A stretch of DNA of 64,000 nucleotides, from contig JADKKV010000007.1 in NCBI GenBank assembly GCA_016720345.1, positions 1 through 64,000 on the forward strand. The letters run 5' to 3'. The DNA comes from Thermomonas sp. GTDB taxonomy: Bacteria > Pseudomonadota > Gammaproteobacteria > Xanthomonadales > Xanthomonadaceae. A program made the position numbers and the translations under genes. Below the pieces are notes generated by a model. That model was not told where the DNA came from. It worked only from the letters and a program-made list of their open reading frames with translations, and made no database searches. This document shows positions 18,792-45,821 of this stretch, in pieces. The first letter of the stretch is position 1. The number at the start of each line of letters is the position of its first letter.

Positions 18792-18805
18792 TTGATCCGA
18801 ATCAA
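18792..18805 (+). promoter_or_regulatory. FNR/Dnr box upstream of the Moco operon
   Basis: Perfect consensus TTGATCCGAATCAA. A TAGACT -10 at 18829-18834 predicts a start near 18840, leaving a GC-rich leader of ~130 bases before moaA. This box occupies the 310-base gap after the porin gene; apart from it and the leader I see no other element there. Confidence 0.8.
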
Positions 18806-23086: not shown

Positions 23087-23439
23087 AGCTGCAGGTCGAC
23101 GCCGGCCAGCTGCGCCTGCGCCTGTCCGAGGCCGAACTCGCCCGCCTGCTCGAACAGGGCGAGGTCACGCAGGCACTGGCGTGCCCGGACGGCGCGCCCG
23201 CGCACTGCCGGGTGGGCTTGCGTGAAGACATCGACGGCGGCCACTGCACGGGCAACCTGATGGACCTGCGGGTCGAACTGCCGCGCGCGGGGTTCCACGC
23301 GTTCGCCGCGGAACGCCCGCGCCGCGACGGCTTCGCGTTCAGCTGCGGTGCGCTGCGGGTCCTGGTGGAGGTCGACGTGCGCGACAGCCACCGGGCGCGG
23401 CGCGCGGCGGCGCCACCTGCGCAAGCGCACGTGAATTGA
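23083..23439 (+). CDS. unknown protein of the Moco operon
   Basis: 118 residues, no signal peptide or membrane segment. Begins MKLQVDAGQLRLRLSEAELA, then a polar beta-rich region with GHCTGNLMDLRVELP. Three cysteines are scattered. It overlaps moaE by ATGA and its stop codon lies inside the FNR-type box of narG. Similar small proteins occur in Moco or nitrate gene clusters; I cannot name the function. Its place as last gene of the operon suggests a role in cofactor handling. Confidence 0.65.
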   Translation: MKLQVDAGQLRLRLSEAELARLLEQGEVTQALACPDGAPAHCRVGLREDIDGGHCTGNLMDLRVELPRAGFHAFAAERPRRDGFAFSCGALRVLVEVDVRDSHRARRAAAPPAQAHVN

Positions 23440-23449
23440 CCCGCATCAA
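23436..23449 (+). promoter_or_regulatory. FNR/Dnr box of the nar operon
   Basis: TTGACCCGCATCAA with TAAACT at 23472-23477, exactly the -10 position for a class II site. Predicted start near 23484, 22 bases before narG. It overlaps the stop codon of the upstream gene. Confidence 0.85.
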
Positions 23450-32556: not shown

Positions 32557-32570
32557 TTGACGTGAATCAA
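32557..32570 (+). promoter_or_regulatory. FNR/Dnr box of the narK pair
   Basis: TTGACGTGAATCAA in the 194-base gap before narK. The -10 at the class II spacing (around 32593) is weak. Confidence 0.75.
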
Positions 32571-32676
32571 GCTGGATTCGCCGCGCAATTGATGAACGTC
32601 AAATCGACGCCGGCGGACAACCGGCATCATGCCGCCAATTCCTGCATCCCCACCCCCATTGCCTGCCGGAGGCTCC

Positions 32677-36881: not shown

Positions 36882-38234
36882 ATGACCACCGCGGCCAGCG
36901 ACGGGTCGCTCGCGCGCCTGCGCCGCAACCTGCGGCTGGGTGGCGGCTGGTACGCGCTGTACCCGCCGCCGCGCGCCTTCCAGGCCTTCGGCGACGACCG
37001 CTTCATCGCCGCGATCCGCGAGAGCAACGGCGATCCGATCCCGCCGCAGCTGGCGCTGCATTTCGACATCCCGGCCGCCTACCGCAGCAGTTTCTGCCAC
37101 CCCGACAGCCGCCCGCGCGGCGCGGACGGCAGCCGCGCGGAAGCGTACCGGGACCGGCTGGTGCGCGAGGTCGGGCTGGTCGGCAGCCTGTTCGACCGCG
37201 ACCGCGACGTGGTCCAGGTCAGCCTGGCGCCGGGGATGACGCGCTGGATGAGCGTGGCCCAGGTCGCCGAATTGCTGGCGAGCCTGCGCCGCCACTTCCA
37301 CGCGGACCGCGCCGCCGACATCGACCTGGCGATGACCCTGGACCCGGACGACCTGGCCTCGGCGCCGCTGCGCGACTGGGCCGCGCTGGGCTTCAACCGG
37401 GTCGGGATCAACATCGCGGCGCTTGCCGGCGCCGGCGCGGCGCCGTCGCGGCAACGCGAAGACGTCGCCCGGCTGGTCGCGCAGGCGCGCGAGGCCGGGT
37501 TCGCCAACCTGCGGGTGGAAGTGCCGTACGGGCTGGCCGGGCAAACCGACGCCGCGTTCGACGCGCTGGTGGCGGCGGTGGCGGCGGCCCGGCCCGAACG
37601 CGTCGGCCTGCGCCACTGTCCCTCGCAGGACGCGCCCGATGCCGGCGCGACCCCGGCCGGGCACGACGCCCACGCGCGCATGCTGCTGGCGGGCGCCGAT
37701 GCGCTGGAGCGCGCGGGCTACCTGCACGTCGGCGTCGACCTGTTCGCGCAGGCGGACGATCCGCTGGTGCGGGCCCAGCGCCAGGGCCGCATCCATCGCG
37801 ATGCGCTCGGGTTCGGCGCGCACGCCGCCACCCACCTGGTCGGCTTCGGGGTGGGCGCGATCAGCCAGCTCGGCGGTTGCCATGCGCAGAACCCGCTGGA
37901 CCAGCCGAGCTGGGAGGCACGCATCGACCGCGGCCACCGCGCCTGCAATCGCGGGGTCGAGCTCAGCGAGGACGACCACCTGCGCGCCGCGGTCCTGCAG
38001 GACATCCTGTGCTACGGACGGATCGGGGTGGCCCAGCTCGAGGCGCACCACCGGATCCCGTTCCGCGCGTACTTTGGCGACGCCCTTGCGCGCCTGCAGC
38101 CGCTGTTCGAGGACGGCTCGCTGTGCTGGGACGGCGACGCGATCCTGCTCGACCGCATCGCCCGGCTTGCCGCGCAGGCGATCGCCAGCCAGTTCGACCC
38201 GCTGACCGGGGCCACCGCAGGCGGCACCGCGTGA
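36882..38234 (+). CDS. HemN-like protein lacking the radical-SAM cysteine motif
   Basis: 450 residues collinear with oxygen-independent coproporphyrinogen III oxidase HemN. The C-terminal half is well kept: LHVGVDLFAQADDPLVRAQR, GFGVGAISQLGGCHAQN, EAHHRIPFRAYFGD. The expected CxxxCxxC cluster motif near residue 65 instead reads FDIPAAYRSSFCHPDSRP, with only one Cys, and the GGGTP motif is replaced by LAPGMTRWM. No frameshift is present there. The classical radical-SAM reaction therefore looks impossible. It lies 51 bases after the small Cys-rich gene and overlaps ubiD (GTGA), behind an FNR-type box. Role unknown; haem binding or a scaffold role are options. Confidence 0.85.
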   Translation: MTTAASDGSLARLRRNLRLGGGWYALYPPPRAFQAFGDDRFIAAIRESNGDPIPPQLALHFDIPAAYRSSFCHPDSRPRGADGSRAEAYRDRLVREVGLVGSLFDRDRDVVQVSLAPGMTRWMSVAQVAELLASLRRHFHADRAADIDLAMTLDPDDLASAPLRDWAALGFNRVGINIAALAGAGAAPSRQREDVARLVAQAREAGFANLRVEVPYGLAGQTDAAFDALVAAVAAARPERVGLRHCPSQDAPDAGATPAGHDAHARMLLAGADALERAGYLHVGVDLFAQADDPLVRAQRQGRIHRDALGFGAHAATHLVGFGVGAISQLGGCHAQNPLDQPSWEARIDRGHRACNRGVELSEDDHLRAAVLQDILCYGRIGVAQLEAHHRIPFRAYFGDALARLQPLFEDGSLCWDGDAILLDRIARLAAQAIASQFDPLTGATAGGTA

Positions 38235-39703
38235 GCTTCCACGACCTGCGCGGATTCCTGGCCGCGCTGGAACGCAATGGCCGCCTGCGCCGCGTGCGCG
38301 AGCCGGTGGACCCGGAACTGGAAACCACCTCGCTCAGCCTGCGCGCGTTGAAGGCTGGCGGGCCGGCGCTGCTGATGGAGCAACCGCTGGGCGCGCGCCA
38401 CCCATACCTGGGCAACCTGTTCGGCCACCGCGACCGCATCGAGGCGGCGCTGGCGGGGCGGCCGCTGGCATCCCTGCGCGAACTCGGCGAACTGCTGGCC
38501 TCGATCAAGGAGCCCAAATGGCCGTCCAGCCTGCGCGAGGCGCTGGGCACCTGGCCGGAGCTGGCGCAGCTTGCGCACGTGGCACCGCAGCGGGTGCGCG
38601 AAGCCGCGTTCCAGCACGAGGTGCTGGAAGGCGACGAGGTCGACCTGTCGCGCCTGCCGATCCAGCGCTGCTGGCCGGAAGATGCAGCGAAGCTGATCAC
38701 CCTGGGCCTGGTGGTCACCCGCGGCACCCGCCAGAAGCGCCAGAACGTGGCGATCTACCGGCAGCAGGTGATCGCGCGCAACCGCATCATCCTGCGCTGG
38801 CTGCCGCACCGCGGCGGCGCGCTCGACTACGCCAGCTGGCAGCACAGCCATCCCGACCAGCCGTTCCCGCTGCTGGTGGCGATCGGCGCGGACCCGGCAA
38901 CCCTGCTTGCAGCGGTGGCGCCGGTTCCGGACACCCTTTCCGAATACGAATTCGCCGGCCTGCTGCGCGGCGAGCGCACCCGCGTCTGGCACAGCGCGGC
39001 CACCGGGCTGGATGCACCGGCCGGCTGCGAGATCCTGCTGGAGGGCCATATCGCCCCCGGCGACACCGCGCTGGAAGGCCCGTTCGGCGACCACACCGGC
39101 TACTACAACGCGCAGGACCACTTCCCGGTGATGACCATCACCCGCATGCACCTGCGCCGCGATGCGATCTACCAGGGCAGCTACATGGGCCGCGCGCCGC
39201 ACGACGAACCGTCGGTGATGGCGATGGCGCTGAACGACGTGTTCGTGCCGATCCTGCGCAAGGTGTTCCCGGAGATCGTGGACTTCTACCTGCCGCCGGA
39301 AGCGTGCTCCTACCGGATCGCGGTGGTCAGCATCCGCAAGCAATACCCCGGCCACGCGCGCCGGATCATGATGGGCATCTGGTCGTACCTGCGCCAGTTC
39401 ACCTACACCAAGTTCGTGATCGTCACCGACGACGACATCGACGTGCGCGACTGGTCGCAGGTGATCTGGGCGCTCTCGACCCGGGTCGACCCGGCGCGCG
39501 ACAGCGTGATCATCGACAAGACCCCGATCGACTACCTCGATTTCTCCAGCCCCACCCCGAACCTCGGTTCGAAGCTGGGGCTGGACGCCACCAACAAGTG
39601 GCCGGCCGAGACCACCCGCACCTGGAGCAAGCCGATCGCGCTGGACCCGGCGGTGGAGAAGCGGGTCGACGCGCTCTGGTCGCAGCTGCTGCAGGCACCC
39701 TGA
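38231..39703 (+). CDS. ubiD: UbiD family decarboxylase (prenyl-FMN dependent)
   Basis: 490 residues from a GTG at 38231 that overlaps the upstream stop (GTGA). UbiD signatures: RLPIQRCWPEDAAKLITLGL, NRIILRWLPHRGGALDY, LEGPFGDHTGYYNAQDHFPV and IYQGSYMGRAPHDEPSV. It decarboxylates octaprenyl-4-hydroxybenzoate in ubiquinone synthesis using prenylated FMN (UbiX, not in the window). Its place with ubiU, ubiV and ubiT suits the anaerobic ubiquinone branch; it could also be the only UbiD of the genome. Confidence 0.9.
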   Translation: MSFHDLRGFLAALERNGRLRRVREPVDPELETTSLSLRALKAGGPALLMEQPLGARHPYLGNLFGHRDRIEAALAGRPLASLRELGELLASIKEPKWPSSLREALGTWPELAQLAHVAPQRVREAAFQHEVLEGDEVDLSRLPIQRCWPEDAAKLITLGLVVTRGTRQKRQNVAIYRQQVIARNRIILRWLPHRGGALDYASWQHSHPDQPFPLLVAIGADPATLLAAVAPVPDTLSEYEFAGLLRGERTRVWHSAATGLDAPAGCEILLEGHIAPGDTALEGPFGDHTGYYNAQDHFPVMTITRMHLRRDAIYQGSYMGRAPHDEPSVMAMALNDVFVPILRKVFPEIVDFYLPPEACSYRIAVVSIRKQYPGHARRIMMGIWSYLRQFTYTKFVIVTDDDIDVRDWSQVIWALSTRVDPARDSVIIDKTPIDYLDFSSPTPNLGSKLGLDATNKWPAETTRTWSKPIALDPAVEKRVDALWSQLLQAP

Positions 39704-40368: not shown

Positions 40369-40382
40369 ATGACCGGGGTCAA
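40369..40382 (+). promoter_or_regulatory. FNR/Dnr box of ubiU-ubiV
   Basis: ATGACCGGGGTCAA with TAGCAT at 40405-40410, exactly the class II -10 position; start predicted at ~40417, 22 bases before ubiU. Confidence 0.7.
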
Positions 40383-40438: not shown

Positions 40439-41437
40439 ATGCAACTGGTGTGTCCCGCCGGCAACCTGCCGGCCCTGCAGGCGGCGGTGGATGCCGGCGC
40501 CAACGCGGTTTACGCAGGCTTCCGCGACCAGACCAACGCGCGCGCCTTCCCCGGCCTCAACTTCTCCGACGACGAGTTGCGCGCCGGCGTCCGCTATGCG
40601 CATGCCAAGGGCGCGAAGGTGTACCTGGCGCTCAACACCTACCCCGACAGCGCGCGCCTGAAGGACTGGCATGCGGCGGTGGACAAGGCCGCCGCGATCG
40701 GCTGCGACGCCATCATCGCCGCCGAGATGGCGGTGCTGGACTACGCCGCGCGCACCCACCCGGGCCTGCCGCGGCACCTGTCGGTGCAGGGCAGTGCGAC
40801 CACTGCGCCGGCGCTGAAATACGCGTACGAACGCTTCGGCATCAGCCGCGCGGTGCTGCCGCGGGTGCTCTCGCTGCAGCAGGTGGAGCGGCTGTGCGAG
40901 CGCTCGCCGGTGGCGCTGGAGGTCTTCGCGTTCGGCAGCCTGTGCATCATGGTCGAAGGCCGCTGCCAGCTGTCCAGCTACGTCACCGGGGCCTCGCCGA
41001 ACCGCCACGGCGTGTGCTCGCCGGCGAAGTTCGTGCGCTGGGACGAACACACCGATGGCAGCCGCAGCGTGCGCCTCAACGACGTGCTGATCGACCAGTT
41101 CCAGCCGCAGGAGCCGGCCGGTTACCCGACCGTGTGCAAGGGACGCTTCGAGGTCGGCAACGAGATCTTCCACGCGCTGGAGGAGCCGACCAGCCTCAAC
41201 ACCCTGGAACTGCTGCCGCGGCTCCAGCAGGCGGGGGTGGTGGCGCTCAAGATCGAGGGCCGGCAACGTGGCGTGGCCTACGTCAGCTCGGTCACCCGCA
41301 CCTGGCGCAAGGCGCTGGACCGGCTGGCCGCGGACCCGGCGCACTGGCAGCTGCAGCCGGACTGGCAGGCGGAACTGTCGCGCCACGCCGAGGGCCACCA
41401 GACCACGCTGGGCCCGTACCACCGGGCCTGGCATTGA
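40439..41437 (+). CDS. ubiU: O2-independent ubiquinone hydroxylation protein, U32 family
   Basis: 332 residues from the ATG at 40439 (MQLVCPAGNLPALQAAVDAG). The four [4Fe-4S] cysteines of UbiU are visible in GSLCIMVEGRCQLSSY, RHGVCSPAKFV and PTVCKGRFEV. U32 peptidase-like fold. With UbiV it introduces ring hydroxyl groups anaerobically (prephenate as oxygen donor is reported for this pathway). Followed after 10 bases by ubiV. Confidence 0.94.
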   Translation: MQLVCPAGNLPALQAAVDAGANAVYAGFRDQTNARAFPGLNFSDDELRAGVRYAHAKGAKVYLALNTYPDSARLKDWHAAVDKAAAIGCDAIIAAEMAVLDYAARTHPGLPRHLSVQGSATTAPALKYAYERFGISRAVLPRVLSLQQVERLCERSPVALEVFAFGSLCIMVEGRCQLSSYVTGASPNRHGVCSPAKFVRWDEHTDGSRSVRLNDVLIDQFQPQEPAGYPTVCKGRFEVGNEIFHALEEPTSLNTLELLPRLQQAGVVALKIEGRQRGVAYVSSVTRTWRKALDRLAADPAHWQLQPDWQAELSRHAEGHQTTLGPYHRAWH

Positions 41438-41447
41438 GGACGCACGC

Positions 41448-42326
41448 ATGAAACTGAGCCTGGGCCCGCTGCAGTACTTCTGGCCGCGCGAACGCACCCT
41501 CGCCTTCTACCGCGAGGCGGCGGCGTGGCCGCTCGACATCGTCTACCTCGGCGAAACCGTGTGCAGCAAGCGCCGCGAACTGCGCACCGCGGAGTGGATC
41601 GAATTGGCTCAGGAACTGGCCGCCGCCGGCAAGGAGGTGGTGCTGTCCTCGCTGTCGCTGATCGAGGCCGAGTCCGAACTCGGGGTGGTCGATCGCCTCG
41701 CCGCGCACGGCGGCTTCAAGGTCGAGGCCAACGACCTCTCTGCGGTGCAGGTCTGCCGCGAGCGCGGCACCCCGTTCGTGGCCGGCCCGTCGCTGAACCT
41801 GTACAACCACCGCGCGCTGGCGCTGCTGGTCGAAGACGGCCTGGTGCGCTGGGTGCCCGGGGTGGAACAGGGCGAAACCCTGGTGCGCGAGCTCAAGCAG
41901 GCATTCGAGGCCGATGGCGGCGCGATGCCGGAACTGGAGGTGATTGGCTGGGGCCGGCTGCCGCTTGCGTATTCGGCGCGCTGCTTCACCGCGCGCGCGC
42001 TGGACGTGGCCAAGGACCAGTGCGGCTTCCGCTGCATCGACTACCCGGACGCGTTGCCGCTGGCCACCCGCGAAGGCCGCCCGTTCCTGCGCATCAACGG
42101 CATCCAGGTGCTGGGCGAGGAACTCACCGACCTCGGCCCGGAACTGCCGGCGCTGCGCGCGTTGGGGGTGGACATCCTGCGCCTGTACCCGCAGGCGGAA
42201 GGCATGGCGGACCTGGTGCGCCACTTCGACCAGGCCCGCGCAGGCGACGCCGCCGCGGCCCCACTCGGCCAGCGCAACGGTTACTGGCATGGCGAACCCG
42301 GCATGCAGGTCGCCGCCGCCGGCTGA
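41448..42326 (+). CDS. ubiV: O2-independent ubiquinone hydroxylation protein, U32 family
   Basis: 292 residues from the ATG at 41448, with TGAGGA upstream. Cluster cysteines: YLGETVCSKRREL, SARCFTARALDV and KDQCGFRCIDYP. Forms a heterodimer with UbiU. The gene converges on nadB with only six bases between the two stops. Confidence 0.94.
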   Translation: MKLSLGPLQYFWPRERTLAFYREAAAWPLDIVYLGETVCSKRRELRTAEWIELAQELAAAGKEVVLSSLSLIEAESELGVVDRLAAHGGFKVEANDLSAVQVCRERGTPFVAGPSLNLYNHRALALLVEDGLVRWVPGVEQGETLVRELKQAFEADGGAMPELEVIGWGRLPLAYSARCFTARALDVAKDQCGFRCIDYPDALPLATREGRPFLRINGIQVLGEELTDLGPELPALRALGVDILRLYPQAEGMADLVRHFDQARAGDAAAAPLGQRNGYWHGEPGMQVAAAG

Positions 42327-42332
42327 GCCCGC

Positions 42333-43796
42333 TCAGGCCGCCGCGACCGGCCCCGCCATCGAAGCGTCGTCATCGCGGTAGTGCGCACCCAGGCTGCGGC
42401 GGCGCTGCAGTGCCGCCGCCAGCAGCGCCCGCGCCAGCCCGGCCTGCCAGCCTTCGGCCGCCAGTCCTTCGCATTCGTCCAGCGCCGCCTGCAGGCCGGC
42501 ATGGTTGCGCACCGGGCCCATCGCCGCCCCCATCAACGCGCGCAACCGTTGCAGCGCGGGCGGCGGCAACGCCGGGCCAAGGCCCACCCACGCCGCCTCG
42601 CCACCACGGTTCTCCGCCCCGGAAACGGCGGCCAGCCATTGCCCGAGCCGGCGACCGAACACCACGCCTTCCAGCAGCGAATTGCTGGCCAGCCGGTTGG
42701 CACCGTGGACGCCGTTGCAGGCCACTTCGCCGGCGGCGAACAGCCCCGGCAGCGAGGTGCGGCCGTCGGCGTCGGTGGCCAGCCCACCCATGTGGAAATG
42801 CGCGGCCGGGGCCACCGGGATCGGCTGCAGGCGCGGATCGATCGCATGCGCCAGGCAGGCCGCGAGCACGGTCGGGAACGCGGTTGGCCAGGCCACGCCG
42901 ATGTGGCGGGCATCCAGCCACGCGCCACCCGCGTGCACCGCCGCCGCGACCCGCCGCGCCACGATGTCGCGCGGGGCAAGGTCGCCCAGCGGATGCACGC
43001 CGGCCATCAGCGGCTGGCCGTCGCGGTCCAGCAGGCGCGCGCCGGCACCGCGCAGGGCCTCGGTGACCAGCGGCAGGCTGTGCAGGCCGGGCACCGCCAA
43101 CGCGGTGGGATGGAACTGCACGAATTCGAGGTCGCGGGCCGCCGCGCCCGCCGCCAATGCCAGTGCGAGGCCGCCGCCATCGGCATCCGCCGGGTTGCTG
43201 GTGGCCGCGAACAGGCCGCCGATGCCGCCCGTGGCCAGCACCACCGCGCGTCCGTCGAAGCGCTGCCTGCTGCCATCGTCGAGGGTCGCGGACACCCCGA
43301 CCACCTGGCCATCGCGCACGGCCAGCGCATCCACGTCGCAGCCGGCGATGCGGCGGATCCGCGGCTGCGCGCGCGCGGCGGCCACCAGCGCGCGCATCAC
43401 CGCGGCGCCGGTGCCGTCGCCGCCCGCGTGCGCGATCCGCGCGCGGTCGTGGCCGCCCTCGCGGCCGAGTTGCAGGCGGCCGTCGGCATCGCGGTCGAAG
43501 TCCACGCCGATCGCCTGCAGCCACGCGATCGCGGCCGGCGCGGACGCAGTCAGCAGTTCCACCATGGCGACGTCGTTGTGGTGGCTGCCGGCCACGCAGG
43601 TATCGCGCGCGTGCGCCGCGGGGGTGTCGCCCGCGCCCAGCGCGGCGGCGATCCCGCCCTGCGCGAGGGTGCTGGCCGCGCCCGCGGCGCCCGGCCGCCG
43701 GGTCAGCAGCAGCACCGGCGCCGGTGCGGCGGCCAGCGCCGCGGACAGGCCGGCGATCCCGCCGCCGACCACGATGATCGGCGCGTCGCCGCTCAC
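42333..43796 (-). CDS. nadB: L-aspartate oxidase
   Basis: 487 residues from a GTG at 43796 that overlaps the nadA stop (GTGTGA). FAD-binding start IIVVGGGIAGLSAALA, succinate dehydrogenase-like core STLAQGGIAAALGAGD, FVQFHPTALAVPGLH, HFHMGGLATDADGRTSLPG and AGEVACNGVHGANRLASNSL. It oxidises aspartate to iminoaspartate for NAD synthesis and can use fumarate in place of oxygen, fitting the anaerobic neighbourhood. Slightly shorter than the E. coli enzyme (~540). Confidence 0.93.
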   Translation of the reverse strand: MSGDAPIIVVGGGIAGLSAALAAAPAPVLLLTRRPGAAGAASTLAQGGIAAALGAGDTPAAHARDTCVAGSHHNDVAMVELLTASAPAAIAWLQAIGVDFDRDADGRLQLGREGGHDRARIAHAGGDGTGAAVMRALVAAARAQPRIRRIAGCDVDALAVRDGQVVGVSATLDDGSRQRFDGRAVVLATGGIGGLFAATSNPADADGGGLALALAAGAAARDLEFVQFHPTALAVPGLHSLPLVTEALRGAGARLLDRDGQPLMAGVHPLGDLAPRDIVARRVAAAVHAGGAWLDARHIGVAWPTAFPTVLAACLAHAIDPRLQPIPVAPAAHFHMGGLATDADGRTSLPGLFAAGEVACNGVHGANRLASNSLLEGVVFGRRLGQWLAAVSGAENRGGEAAWVGLGPALPPPALQRLRALMGAAMGPVRNHAGLQAALDECEGLAAEGWQAGLARALLAAALQRRRSLGAHYRDDDASMAGPVAAA

Positions 43797-44827
43797 ACCC
43801 GGTCGCGGCGGCCGACCGCCAGCATGCGTTCCAGCGCGCGCCGCGCGCCGGCGGCGATCCCGGCCGGCACCTCCACCACGTACTTGCGTTCCAGCAGGCT
43901 GGCGTGGATGTTCGGCAGGGTGATCCGCTGCATGTACGGGCACAGGTTGCAGGGCTTGACGAACTCGATGCCCGGGAACCGCGACTTCAGGTTGTCGGCC
44001 ATCGAGCATTCGGTAATCAGCGCCACCCGCTCCGGCTTTTCCCTTTCCAGCCAGCTGCCCATGGCGGTGGTGGAACCGACGAAATCGGCTTCGGCCAGCA
44101 CCTCCGGCGGGCACTCCGGATGCGCCACCACGCGCGCGTGGAACTGCTCGCGGGTGTGCCGGACCTGCTGCGCGGTGAAGGTCTCGTGGACCTCGCAGCT
44201 GCCGTCCCACAGCACCAGCCGGATCTTCGTCTGCGAGGCGACGTGCGCGCCGAGGAAGCGGTCCGGCAGGAAGATCACGGTGTCCACCCCGAATTCGGCG
44301 GCGACCGCTTCCACCACCTCGGAGGCATTGGCGGAGGTGCAGCAGGCGTCGGACTCGGCCTTCACCGCGGCGGTGGTGTTGACGTAGCTCACCACCGGCA
44401 GCCCGGGATGGCGCGCGCGCAGGGCACGCACGTCGTCGGCGGTGATCGACGCGGCCAGCGAGCAGCCGGCCTCCAGGTCCGGGATCAGCACGGTCCGGTC
44501 CGGGGCCAGGATCTTGGCGGTTTCGGCCATGAAGTGGACGCCGCACAGGACGATGGTGTCGGCCTCGCAGGTGGCCGCGGCCTGCGCCAGCGCCAGCGAG
44601 TCGCCGGTGATGTCGGCCACCCCGTGGAAGATCTCCGGCGACTGGTAGCTGTGCGCCATGATCACCGCGCCGCGCTCGCGCTTGAGTTGCTGGATGGCGT
44701 CGATCCAGGCCAGGTGCAGCGGCACCTCCAGGCACGGCACCAGTTGTTCAAGGCGGGCACCCAGCGCGGCATGGCGCTCGGCGATCTCGGGGGTCCATCG
44801 CGGACGGAAAGCGTCTTGGCGGGTCAT
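43793..44827 (-). CDS. nadA: quinolinate synthase
   Basis: 344 residues from the ATG at 44827 (MTRQDAFRPRW); the longer open frame to 44992 is Pro/Ala-rich and not conserved. [4Fe-4S] cysteines in IVLCGVHFMAETAKIL, SDACCTSANA or ITECSMADNL, and KPCNLCPYMQ. It condenses iminoaspartate with DHAP to quinolinate and is oxygen-sensitive. Upstream of and overlapping nadB. Confidence 0.94.
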   Translation of the reverse strand: MTRQDAFRPRWTPEIAERHAALGARLEQLVPCLEVPLHLAWIDAIQQLKRERGAVIMAHSYQSPEIFHGVADITGDSLALAQAAATCEADTIVLCGVHFMAETAKILAPDRTVLIPDLEAGCSLAASITADDVRALRARHPGLPVVSYVNTTAAVKAESDACCTSANASEVVEAVAAEFGVDTVIFLPDRFLGAHVASQTKIRLVLWDGSCEVHETFTAQQVRHTREQFHARVVAHPECPPEVLAEADFVGSTTAMGSWLEREKPERVALITECSMADNLKSRFPGIEFVKPCNLCPYMQRITLPNIHASLLERKYVVEVPAGIAAGARRALERMLAVGRRDRV

Positions 44828-44885: not shown

Positions 44886-45737
44886 TCAGGCGCGGGCGTG
44901 GTAGGCGGCGCGGGCCGCGTCGGCGAGGCGGGCACCGCGGTTGAGGGCGATGCGCAGCCCCAGCGGCACCTGTTCCCACGGCAGGCGGTCAAGCACGTTG
45001 CGCGCGGTCAGGCCGAGTTCGGTGTCGCCGGTCAGCACCAGCCGGCGCTGGAAGAACAGGGTATCGGCGTCCTCGCGGCGCCCGGCCAGCAGCAGCAGGT
45101 CGGTGGCAGTGCCGCGCACGGTGGCCTCGGCGGGTGCATCCACCACCACCAGCCGGTTGCCCTGCAGTTCCACCACCCAGCCGATGCCGAGGTCGCTGAC
45201 CTCGATCCCGAGCCGGCGCCCGTCCATGAACTCGATCGCGCCCTCGGCGAGTGGCTGCGCCAGCGCCTGCGCCATCGCGCGTTCGATCACCCGCCGCCGC
45301 AGCGACGGCGGCACCGCCCGCAGCAACGGGGCCAGCCGGCGCGGTGGCGGGATCAGGCGCAGCAGCGGATTGGCGGCCGGCAGGGGGGATTCGGGTTGGG
45401 CATCCATGGTGGCCGCCATCATGCGCCCCGCCGCCGCGGGCGGGCCTTGATCCAGGTCAGATGCCAGTGCCTGCGCGCGGCAGGCCTCGCCGATGGCGAG
45501 GCCGACGACGCCGCTTGCGACCTCAGGGGCCACCCCGACCCGCACCGCCAGCGCGGCCGCGCGTTCGCGGACCTGGCGCTCGCGCCCGGGATCGCGCCCG
45601 CGGGCACCGGCGTGCAGCTTCAGCCGTCCCGCCAGCTGCGCCAGCCGCGCGCGCGCCGCCAGCAGCAGGACCAGGCCATCGTCGATGCCATCGATCGCAG
45701 TGCGTACCGGCGTCAGCCCGGGAACAGGTCTGGTCAC
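44886..45737 (-). CDS. chorismate mutase-UbiT (SCP2) fusion protein
   Basis: 283 residues from a GTG at 45737 with GGAGG six bases ahead; another GTG at 45749 would add four residues. Residues 1-85 are an AroQ chorismate mutase: VRTAIDGIDDGLVLLLAARA, then GRLKLHAGARGRDPGRERQV. Counterparts of the E. coli Arg11, Arg28, Lys39, Arg51 and Glu52 active-site residues are in place. After a linker (LASDLDQGPP) comes UbiT: LLRLIPPPRRLAPLLRAVPP, IEFMDGRRLGIEVSDLG, REDADTLFFQRRLVLTGDTE. UbiT is the SCP2 lipid-binding accessory factor of anaerobic ubiquinone synthesis. FNR-type boxes lie upstream (45808) and inside the linker (45447). The frame is intact. Confidence 0.85.
   Translation of the reverse strand: MTRPVPGLTPVRTAIDGIDDGLVLLLAARARLAQLAGRLKLHAGARGRDPGRERQVRERAAALAVRVGVAPEVASGVVGLAIGEACRAQALASDLDQGPPAAAGRMMAATMDAQPESPLPAANPLLRLIPPPRRLAPLLRAVPPSLRRRVIERAMAQALAQPLAEGAIEFMDGRRLGIEVSDLGIGWVVELQGNRLVVVDAPAEATVRGTATDLLLLAGRREDADTLFFQRRLVLTGDTELGLTARNVLDRLPWEQVPLGLRIALNRGARLADAARAAYHARA
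45447..45460 (-). promoter_or_regulatory. FNR/Dnr-type box inside the chorismate mutase-UbiT linker
   Basis: On the minus strand CTGACCTGGATCAA, encoding the linker residues around DLDQ. A -10-like CATGAT lies at 45418-45423, predicting a start ~5 bases before the in-frame ATG at 45407. It may drive UbiT alone, or be chance. Confidence 0.4.
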
Positions 45738-45807
45738 GTCCACCTCCACTGGTCGCCGCAGGCGCGGCGACGCCCGCCATCATTCTGCAGCAGCGCCCAC
45801 GCGCGCG

Positions 45808-45821
45808 CTGATGCAGGTCAA
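45808..45821 (-). promoter_or_regulatory. FNR/Dnr box of the chorismate mutase-UbiT gene
   Basis: Minus strand TTGACCTGCATCAG. Class II geometry predicts a start near 45773, 36 bases before the GTG at 45737; the -10 is poor. Confidence 0.65.

Follow-up and report, generated by a model that had tools for sequence, protein, structure and literature searches.

Prephenate is the oxygen donor for the hydroxylations performed by UbiU-UbiV, according to the available text of a review (PMC11574389) citing Ferizhendi et al. (2024, PNAS), and the initial annotation of the locus described here had said the same. The claim is recent and unusual; the same text of PMC11574389 adds that the exact chemistry, along with direct evidence for the U32 enzymes, is still to be demonstrated. 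In E. coli UbiT is a protein of 174 aa, as given in the available part of PMC6747719, and its gene has two promoters, one of them activated by FNR, as given in that of PMC10470549. No description of a protein joining chorismate mutase to UbiT was found in the open-licence papers searched, and the available portions of PMC10470549, PMC11574389, PMC11707229, PMC6747719 and PMC13386864 contain no mention of it under chorismate, prephenate or fusion terms. Here, the gene for such a protein (CM-UbiT) is analyzed in a 64,000-nucleotide stretch of DNA from Thermomonas sp., referred to below as the window.

Structure of the fusion gene and its product

The open frame of CM-UbiT, counted from its first GTG, spans 287 codons (44886-45749, minus strand). 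The GTG at 45737 appears to be the better start, because a Shine-Dalgarno motif, GGAGGT (45742-45747), stands 4 nt ahead of it; the gene so delimited (44886-45737, minus strand) encodes 283 aa and is supported by the open reading frame, the Pfam and NCBIfam matches and the Shine-Dalgarno motif. In the 287-residue translation, Pfam CM_2 (PF01817) matches residues 15-90 with 47.6 bits (cut-off 27), which corresponds to a type II chorismate mutase (AroQ) domain at 45480-45707 (minus strand), modelled with three helices. Pfam SCP2 matches residues 161-254 (56.8 bits, cut-off 21.3), while the NCBIfam UbiT model NF047962 matches residues 144-260 (129.8 bits, curated cut-off 46.9), the UbiT/SCP2 domain being placed at 44970-45320 (minus strand). 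One match to CM-UbiT was found in its own genome.

The initial annotation had read the gene as one intact frame with a mutase at residues 1-85 and UbiT at residues ~110-283. These limits fit the Pfam and NCBIfam matches, both halves pass the Pfam cut-offs and the UbiT half that of NCBIfam as well, and the frame is open in relatives. Because this frame is open in many relatives as well, the junction is explained neither by chance nor by a sequencing error, and an artefact was rejected as an explanation. The CM-UbiT fusion is firmly established.

An AlphaFold2 model built with 64 fused sequences as input (mean pLDDT 84, pTM 0.59) contains three helices (residues 8-43, 50-67 and 71-88), then a disordered linker (residues 93-117 of 283, pLDDT under 50; 45387-45461, minus strand), followed by an SCP2-like part. 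Because the linker is disordered, the model does not point to a channel between the two halves. In Foldseek comparisons the mutase half resembled the E. coli chorismate mutase 1ecm (TM 0.82 of target, rmsd 1.3, with a weak E of ~0.02), and, among solved structures, the UbiT half came nearest to UbiJ-SCP2, 6h6p (TM 0.75 of target, E ~1e-5).

Conservation was analyzed in 77 distinct fused proteins, the window's included. R11, R28, K39, R51 and E52 are invariant (77/77), in line with the conserved charged active-site residues of the initial annotation, whereas 76 of them retain Q88 and 73 retain D48; all seven are present in the window's protein, and we take their numbering and catalytic roles to be those of the E. 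coli enzyme. The position of E. coli S84 is occupied by Ala in 70 of the 77 and by Val in the Bartonella enzyme 3rmi. Across the mutase region the commonest residue averages 60% in the first alignment (42 rows, that of L036 being without mutase). The CM_2 score, the three-helix fold and the catalytic residues are those of a type II (AroQ) chorismate mutase, and the mutase half would accordingly be expected to convert chorismate to prephenate. Median dN/dS over non-overlapping pairs was 0.315 for the mutase half (35 pairs), 0.292 for UbiT (35 pairs) and 0.72 for the linker (33 pairs); many of these pairs are distant and near saturation, and the weight is carried by close ones, the five closest of which gave 0.07 to 0.23 for the mutase half. 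Purifying selection acts on both halves of CM-UbiT, and a decayed passenger, considered as an explanation of the mutase half, is ruled out by the residue conservation and the dN/dS values.

Gene neighborhood

The initial annotation had named ubiU, ubiV and ubiD as neighbors of the fusion. All three are in the window: ubiU at 40439-41437 (plus strand; NF047963, 529.8 bits, cut-off 440), ubiV at 41448-42326 (plus strand; NF047965, 350 bits, cut-off 275) and a ubiD-family decarboxylase at 38231-39703 (plus strand; PF01977, 235.8 bits; TIGR00148 above and PRK10922 below the cut-off). The immediate neighbors, however, are nadA directly downstream (43793-44827, minus strand, ATG start chosen; PF02445, 357 bits), followed by nadB (42333-43778, minus strand, start approximate; PF00890, 260.7 bits; L-aspartate oxidase models below their cut-offs), and cysNC upstream. 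The ubiUV genes are oriented towards CM-UbiT from the far side of nadB. The same arrangement recurs in many relatives (L120-L199), nadA and nadB lying directly 3' of CM-UbiT and ubiV-ubiU facing it.

Several further features of these loci were recorded. A HemN-like radical SAM protein is encoded beside ubiD at 36882-38234 (198 bits vs a hemN cut-off of 325). In L036 (genome G255) and L221 (genome G012), a frame for a membrane protein, NnrS-like by eye only, immediately precedes UbiT or the lone mutase. FNR-type boxes occur at 23436-23449, 18792-18805, 32557-32602 and 40369-40382, before narG, moaA, narK and ubiU, respectively, and these predicted sites mark an anaerobic nitrate-respiration island. 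The whole window holds 10 boxes with at most one mismatch vs 1.35 expected.

A putative FNR-type promoter within the linker

In the class II layout of FNR/CRP-type promoters, a TTGAY-N4-RTCAA box precedes the -10 hexamer by about 22 nt. This layout is found inside the coding sequence of the fusion, where it had been missed by the initial annotation: a box in the linker (CTGACCTGGATCAA; 45447-45460, minus strand; 9 of 10 to the consensus) is followed 23 nt later by a putative -10 element, CATGAT (45418-45423, minus strand), with the conserved pattern xA---T, the two forming a predicted promoter. Position 40 behind the box holds an in-frame ATG, from which a UbiT-only product of 173 aa (44886-45407, minus strand) would be translated. 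A second box lies upstream of the whole gene (TTGACCTGCATCAG; 45808-45821, minus strand), with a putative -10 element, AATGAT (45779-45784, minus strand). The narG, moaA and ubiU boxes of the window have the same layout with a gap of 22-23, that of ubiU (40369-40382, plus strand) being followed by TAGCAT 22 nt later.

A box of at least 9/10 is present in the linker in 56 of the 77 distinct loci. Six further 120-nt segments taken from these genes contain one in 0-1 of 77, three stretches 1-3 kb upstream in 0 to 11 of 77, and two windows just before the gene in 12 of 77 each. The A and the last T of the -10 element (xA---T) are kept in all 56 distinct linker-box loci (box at least 8/10), and in 54 of the 56 an ATG in frame follows the box at position 37 or 40. 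With box, -10 element and in-frame ATG combined, the gene probably gives two products, mutase-UbiT and free UbiT, a reading with good backing at the sequence level. The regulator (the genome holds four Crp-type regulator domains), the activity of the linker promoter and the separate UbiT are all things that we infer from nucleotide patterns. With thresholds of at least 8 in the linker and at least 9 within 300 nt upstream (background ~0.1 upstream box per locus), the box is confined to the linker in 48 of 79 loci and to the upstream region in 11, while 15 have it in both places, as the window has, and five in neither; in the 48 linker-only loci the anaerobic product would therefore be UbiT without mutase.

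Two other approaches to the linker were discarded. Its conserved peptide (DLDQG ... M[IM]) was considered as a protein signal, and a DNA signal was preferred because Thermomonas hydrothermalis (L127) shifts the ATGAT and keeps A25 and T29 of the -10 element; a codon-use test of the box codons was circular and was set aside.

The frequency of the linker box, the constancy of its -10 pattern and the placement of the ATG would also be expected if two genes simply share one frame, with the mutase frame overrunning the ubiT promoter, in which case the linker promoter would be the true source of UbiT and the joined protein a by-product. This explanation, which partly overlaps with the one preferred below, gains from the lone-ubiT loci of the order, 12 of 27 of which (but not the other 15) have a box of at least 9/10 about 60-125 nt ahead of the UbiT core, at a distance like that of the linker boxes in fused loci, and from the loci in which UbiT and its box survive the loss of the mutase (L036, 8/10; L037, 9/10). 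A mere by-product is nonetheless unlikely, considering that the frame is kept across linkers of differing length in 78 of the best 80 named loci (picked by likeness to the fusion), that the 11 upstream-only loci have no box in the linker, and that the mutase half is under purifying selection. Moreover, two of the 41 fused genes (L035 and L043) have no in-frame ATG, GTG or TTG between the halves, and UbiT should therefore exist there only as the fusion; in a separate set of 79 loci of the named-genome scan, an in-frame start between the halves occurs in all 79. As for the history of the gene, the mutase frame likely came to run through a ubiT promoter that was already there.

Distribution and origin of the fusion

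The full-length fusion, with both halves in one open frame, was found in 41 of the 299 Xanthomonadales genomes sampled; these 41 fall in families f1, f2, f3 and f12; matches to the query at E <= 0.001 were obtained in 150 of the 299, many through other mutases only. The initial annotation had suggested looking for AroQ-SCP2 fusions in genomes with ubiUV. UbiU (E <= 1e-90) is present in 79 of the 299 genomes and in 40 of the 41 fused ones, the sole fused genome without a UbiU match (G076) being 67% complete. In the window's family the fusion occurs in all 19 UbiU-bearing genomes and, among the genomes sampled, never without UbiU. In a phylum-wide sample of 398 genomes there were 63 matches at E <= 1e-8, of which only four cover both halves, all in the window's own family and with the window genome among them; the other 59 are due to the UbiT half (58) or to a lone mutase (one, G449). 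Among the best 80 of 290 relatives in a scan of named genomes, chosen by likeness to the fusion and hence favoring it, 78 are fused; the genera include Thermomonas, Lysobacter, Stenotrophomonas, Rhodanobacter, Dyella, Frateuria, Arenimonas, Luteimonas and Pseudoxanthomonas, and in the two that are not fused, from Arenimonas daejeonensis and Luteimonas granuli, mutase and UbiT occupy different frames.

Separate genes in relatives had been named in the initial annotation as something that would speak against the fusion. One such genome was found (G291, with UbiU), in which a lone mutase with the catalytic residues recognized by eye is 35 kb from a lone UbiT in an otherwise fused family, and two loci (L189 and L196) have a frame break between the halves; the junction itself is supported by many other relatives. 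Three more genomes, each a single case like G291, concern the fate of the mutase. In two of them UbiU was not matched: in G184 little more than traces of the mutase half remain beside UbiT, and G012, lacking a UbiT match too, encodes a free-standing mutase of this type in which K39 is read as R. G255 runs counter to this pattern, since it has UbiU and retains UbiT, yet its mutase half is gone.

A mutase scan with our own HMM over 74 loci, mostly of lone UbiT with flanks of 1.5-6 kb, gave hits in L091-L093 (fused loci), L189 and L196 (mutase and UbiT not in one frame) and L211 (lone mutase); apart from the frame-broken L189 and L196, no mutase beside a lone UbiT was found in these 74 loci. CM_2 is present in 55 of 57 lone-UbiT genomes, in none of the 57 within 35 kb of UbiT on the same contig, the closest being that of G291; as many of these genomes are drafts, neighbors across contig ends are unseen. 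In a quick tree of 148 rows, from which partial and long-branch rows had been dropped and in which L189 and L196 were counted as fused, a clade of 97 rows (support 95) unites all 92 that are labelled fused; its other members are three lone UbiT (L044-L046) and the two rows whose mutase was lost. The fusion may have had one origin, with which this tree is compatible. One contig filed as an Erythrobacter MAG (L191) has a CM-UbiT that groups with gammaproteobacterial ones and is probably misbinned.

Supply and use of prephenate

Prephenate dehydratase was detected in 33 of 37 fused genomes tested and was not matched in G231, G203, G116 and G246, which are 99-100% complete, have an intact CM-UbiT and all carry UbiU. 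By inferred names, the lineages that appear to have lost PheA are Thermomonas hydrothermalis and some Arenimonas. The single CM_2 domain of each of the four is that of the fusion, with the catalytic residues kept, whereas two or three CM_2 domains were counted in each of the other 30 of 34 fused genomes tested (the second of the window genome being a fragment), so that most fused genomes have another source of prephenate. Chorismate synthase is present in all nine genomes tested, the four included.

As to the use of prephenate, the TrhP model matches at the UbiU places only (16 of 16 genomes), while prephenate dehydrogenase gave no match in G231, scores below the cut-off in G203 and G116, and 26.7 vs 26.5 bits in G246; the latter search is weak evidence, because nothing matched in eight dehydratase-bearing genomes either. 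By the dehydratase, dehydrogenase and TrhP searches, UbiU-UbiV are the only prephenate-linked enzymes found in the four genomes, 'only mutase' holding for the CM_2 type and 'only user' for these three families. Having the fusion's CM_2 only, no dehydratase match and UbiU as the only match of the TrhP model, these genomes favor a link of the predicted mutase to UbiUV.

The window genome itself shows pheA in three reading frames on contig C3 at ~57.7-58.4 kb (L201, L222), and the adjoining serC and aroA, recognized by eye, also look broken, unlike the window. Either assembly indels or gene decay would explain this region, and as the two are indistinguishable here, the window genome is not counted as a loss of PheA. 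A complementation screen of Rhodanobacter and Lysobacter libraries, described in the available part of PMC11535334, was set aside as evidence on the mutase, since pheA selection mainly tests the dehydratase.

These data also bear on the possibility that the mutase half is an extra chorismate mutase for general aromatic amino acid synthesis, joined to UbiT through neighborhood and devoid of pathway meaning. Phenylalanine synthesis is normally present in fused genomes, as the dehydratase counts indicate, and across the phylum-wide sample UbiT is encoded alone elsewhere, both of which suit such a role. The four dehydratase-less genomes retain a fused mutase with its catalytic residues, however, and the fusion tracks UbiU; where UbiU was not matched, the homologue either has K39 read as R (G012) or has decayed (G184), these being single cases. 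A general aromatic role is, in our judgment, quite improbable.

AroQ folds include isochorismate lyases, and the mutase half scores below every curated NCBIfam chorismate mutase cut-off (PRK09239, TIGR01795 and others; best 42.3 bits vs 120), but that it is an isochorismate or chorismate pyruvate lyase, serving for example 4-hydroxybenzoate, the ubiquinone ring precursor, is hardly credible, given the 12.5 bits obtained with the PchB-type isochorismate pyruvate lyase model PRK07075 (cut-off 126) vs 42.3 bits with the best chorismate mutase model, and the invariance of R51 and E52 (77/77), the latter of which PchB is not known to have.

Proposed function

Taken together, the results are best explained by a bifunctional CM-UbiT of oxygen-free ubiquinone synthesis with a local supply of prephenate and two outputs of one gene, to which we assign a probability of about 0.7. 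The N-terminal AroQ domain would convert chorismate to prephenate, and the C-terminal UbiT would bind the hydrophobic precursors, which UbiU-UbiV would hydroxylate with oxygen from prephenate; one flexible chain would thus tie the local supply of prephenate to the carrier of the precursor. The whole fusion would be expressed from the upstream promoter, which in the window has an FNR-type box of its own, and UbiT alone from the FNR-type promoter embedded in the linker. Use of the fusion's prephenate by UbiUV, and its supply on the spot, are the best reading of the gene content and conservation described above. The initial annotation had proposed a functional link of this kind: conservation of the fusion, its retained active site and its co-occurrence with ubiU give the link partial support, and it is amended by the putative linker promoter, predicted to give UbiT alone.

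A more specific version, in which the mutase is dedicated to making the donor, a single gene providing free UbiT along with a mutase-UbiT that passes prephenate on to UbiU-UbiV next to the bound precursor, and in which the lineages without PheA make prephenate solely for this purpose, is offered tentatively, its chances being somewhat short of even. The mutase half would be an aid and not a general requirement, since UbiT lacks the mutase in other sampled lineages and the E. coli protein works in that form, according to the available text of PMC6747719.

Such a conserved fusion of a presumed prephenate-maker with a lipid-binding factor would constitute independent genomic evidence for the link between prephenate and UbiUV, and organisms whose genomes retain the fused mutase but no PheA lend themselves naturally to testing it. 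The predicted promoter in the linker suggests a way in which two genes can become fused without the second one losing its own anaerobic regulation.

Comparison with known systems

Like UbiT (YhbT) of E. coli and other Proteobacteria, CM-UbiT has an SCP2 domain scoring over the NF047962 cut-off, a location near ubiUV and a predicted FNR-type control, and its putative short form of 173 aa compares with the 174 aa of the E. coli protein given in the available text of PMC6747719; it differs in having an AroQ domain at the N terminus and a promoter pattern inside the coding sequence. With the AroQ mutases (the PheA domain 1ecm and the Bartonella enzyme 3rmi) it shares the three-helix fold (TM 0.82 and 0.71 of target, respectively) and the catalytic residues, but here the mutase is joined to a lipid-binding protein instead of prephenate dehydratase, prephenate dehydrogenase or DAHP synthase. 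UbiJ-SCP2 (6h6p), the nearest solved structure to the UbiT half, belongs to the O2-dependent pathway, as stated in the available part of PMC6747719, and has no mutase. The UbiT-UbiU fusion of Zymomonas mobilis, reported in the same part of PMC6747719, likewise joins UbiT to a partner from the same pathway; there the partner is the hydroxylase, whereas in CM-UbiT it would be the enzyme making the oxygen donor.
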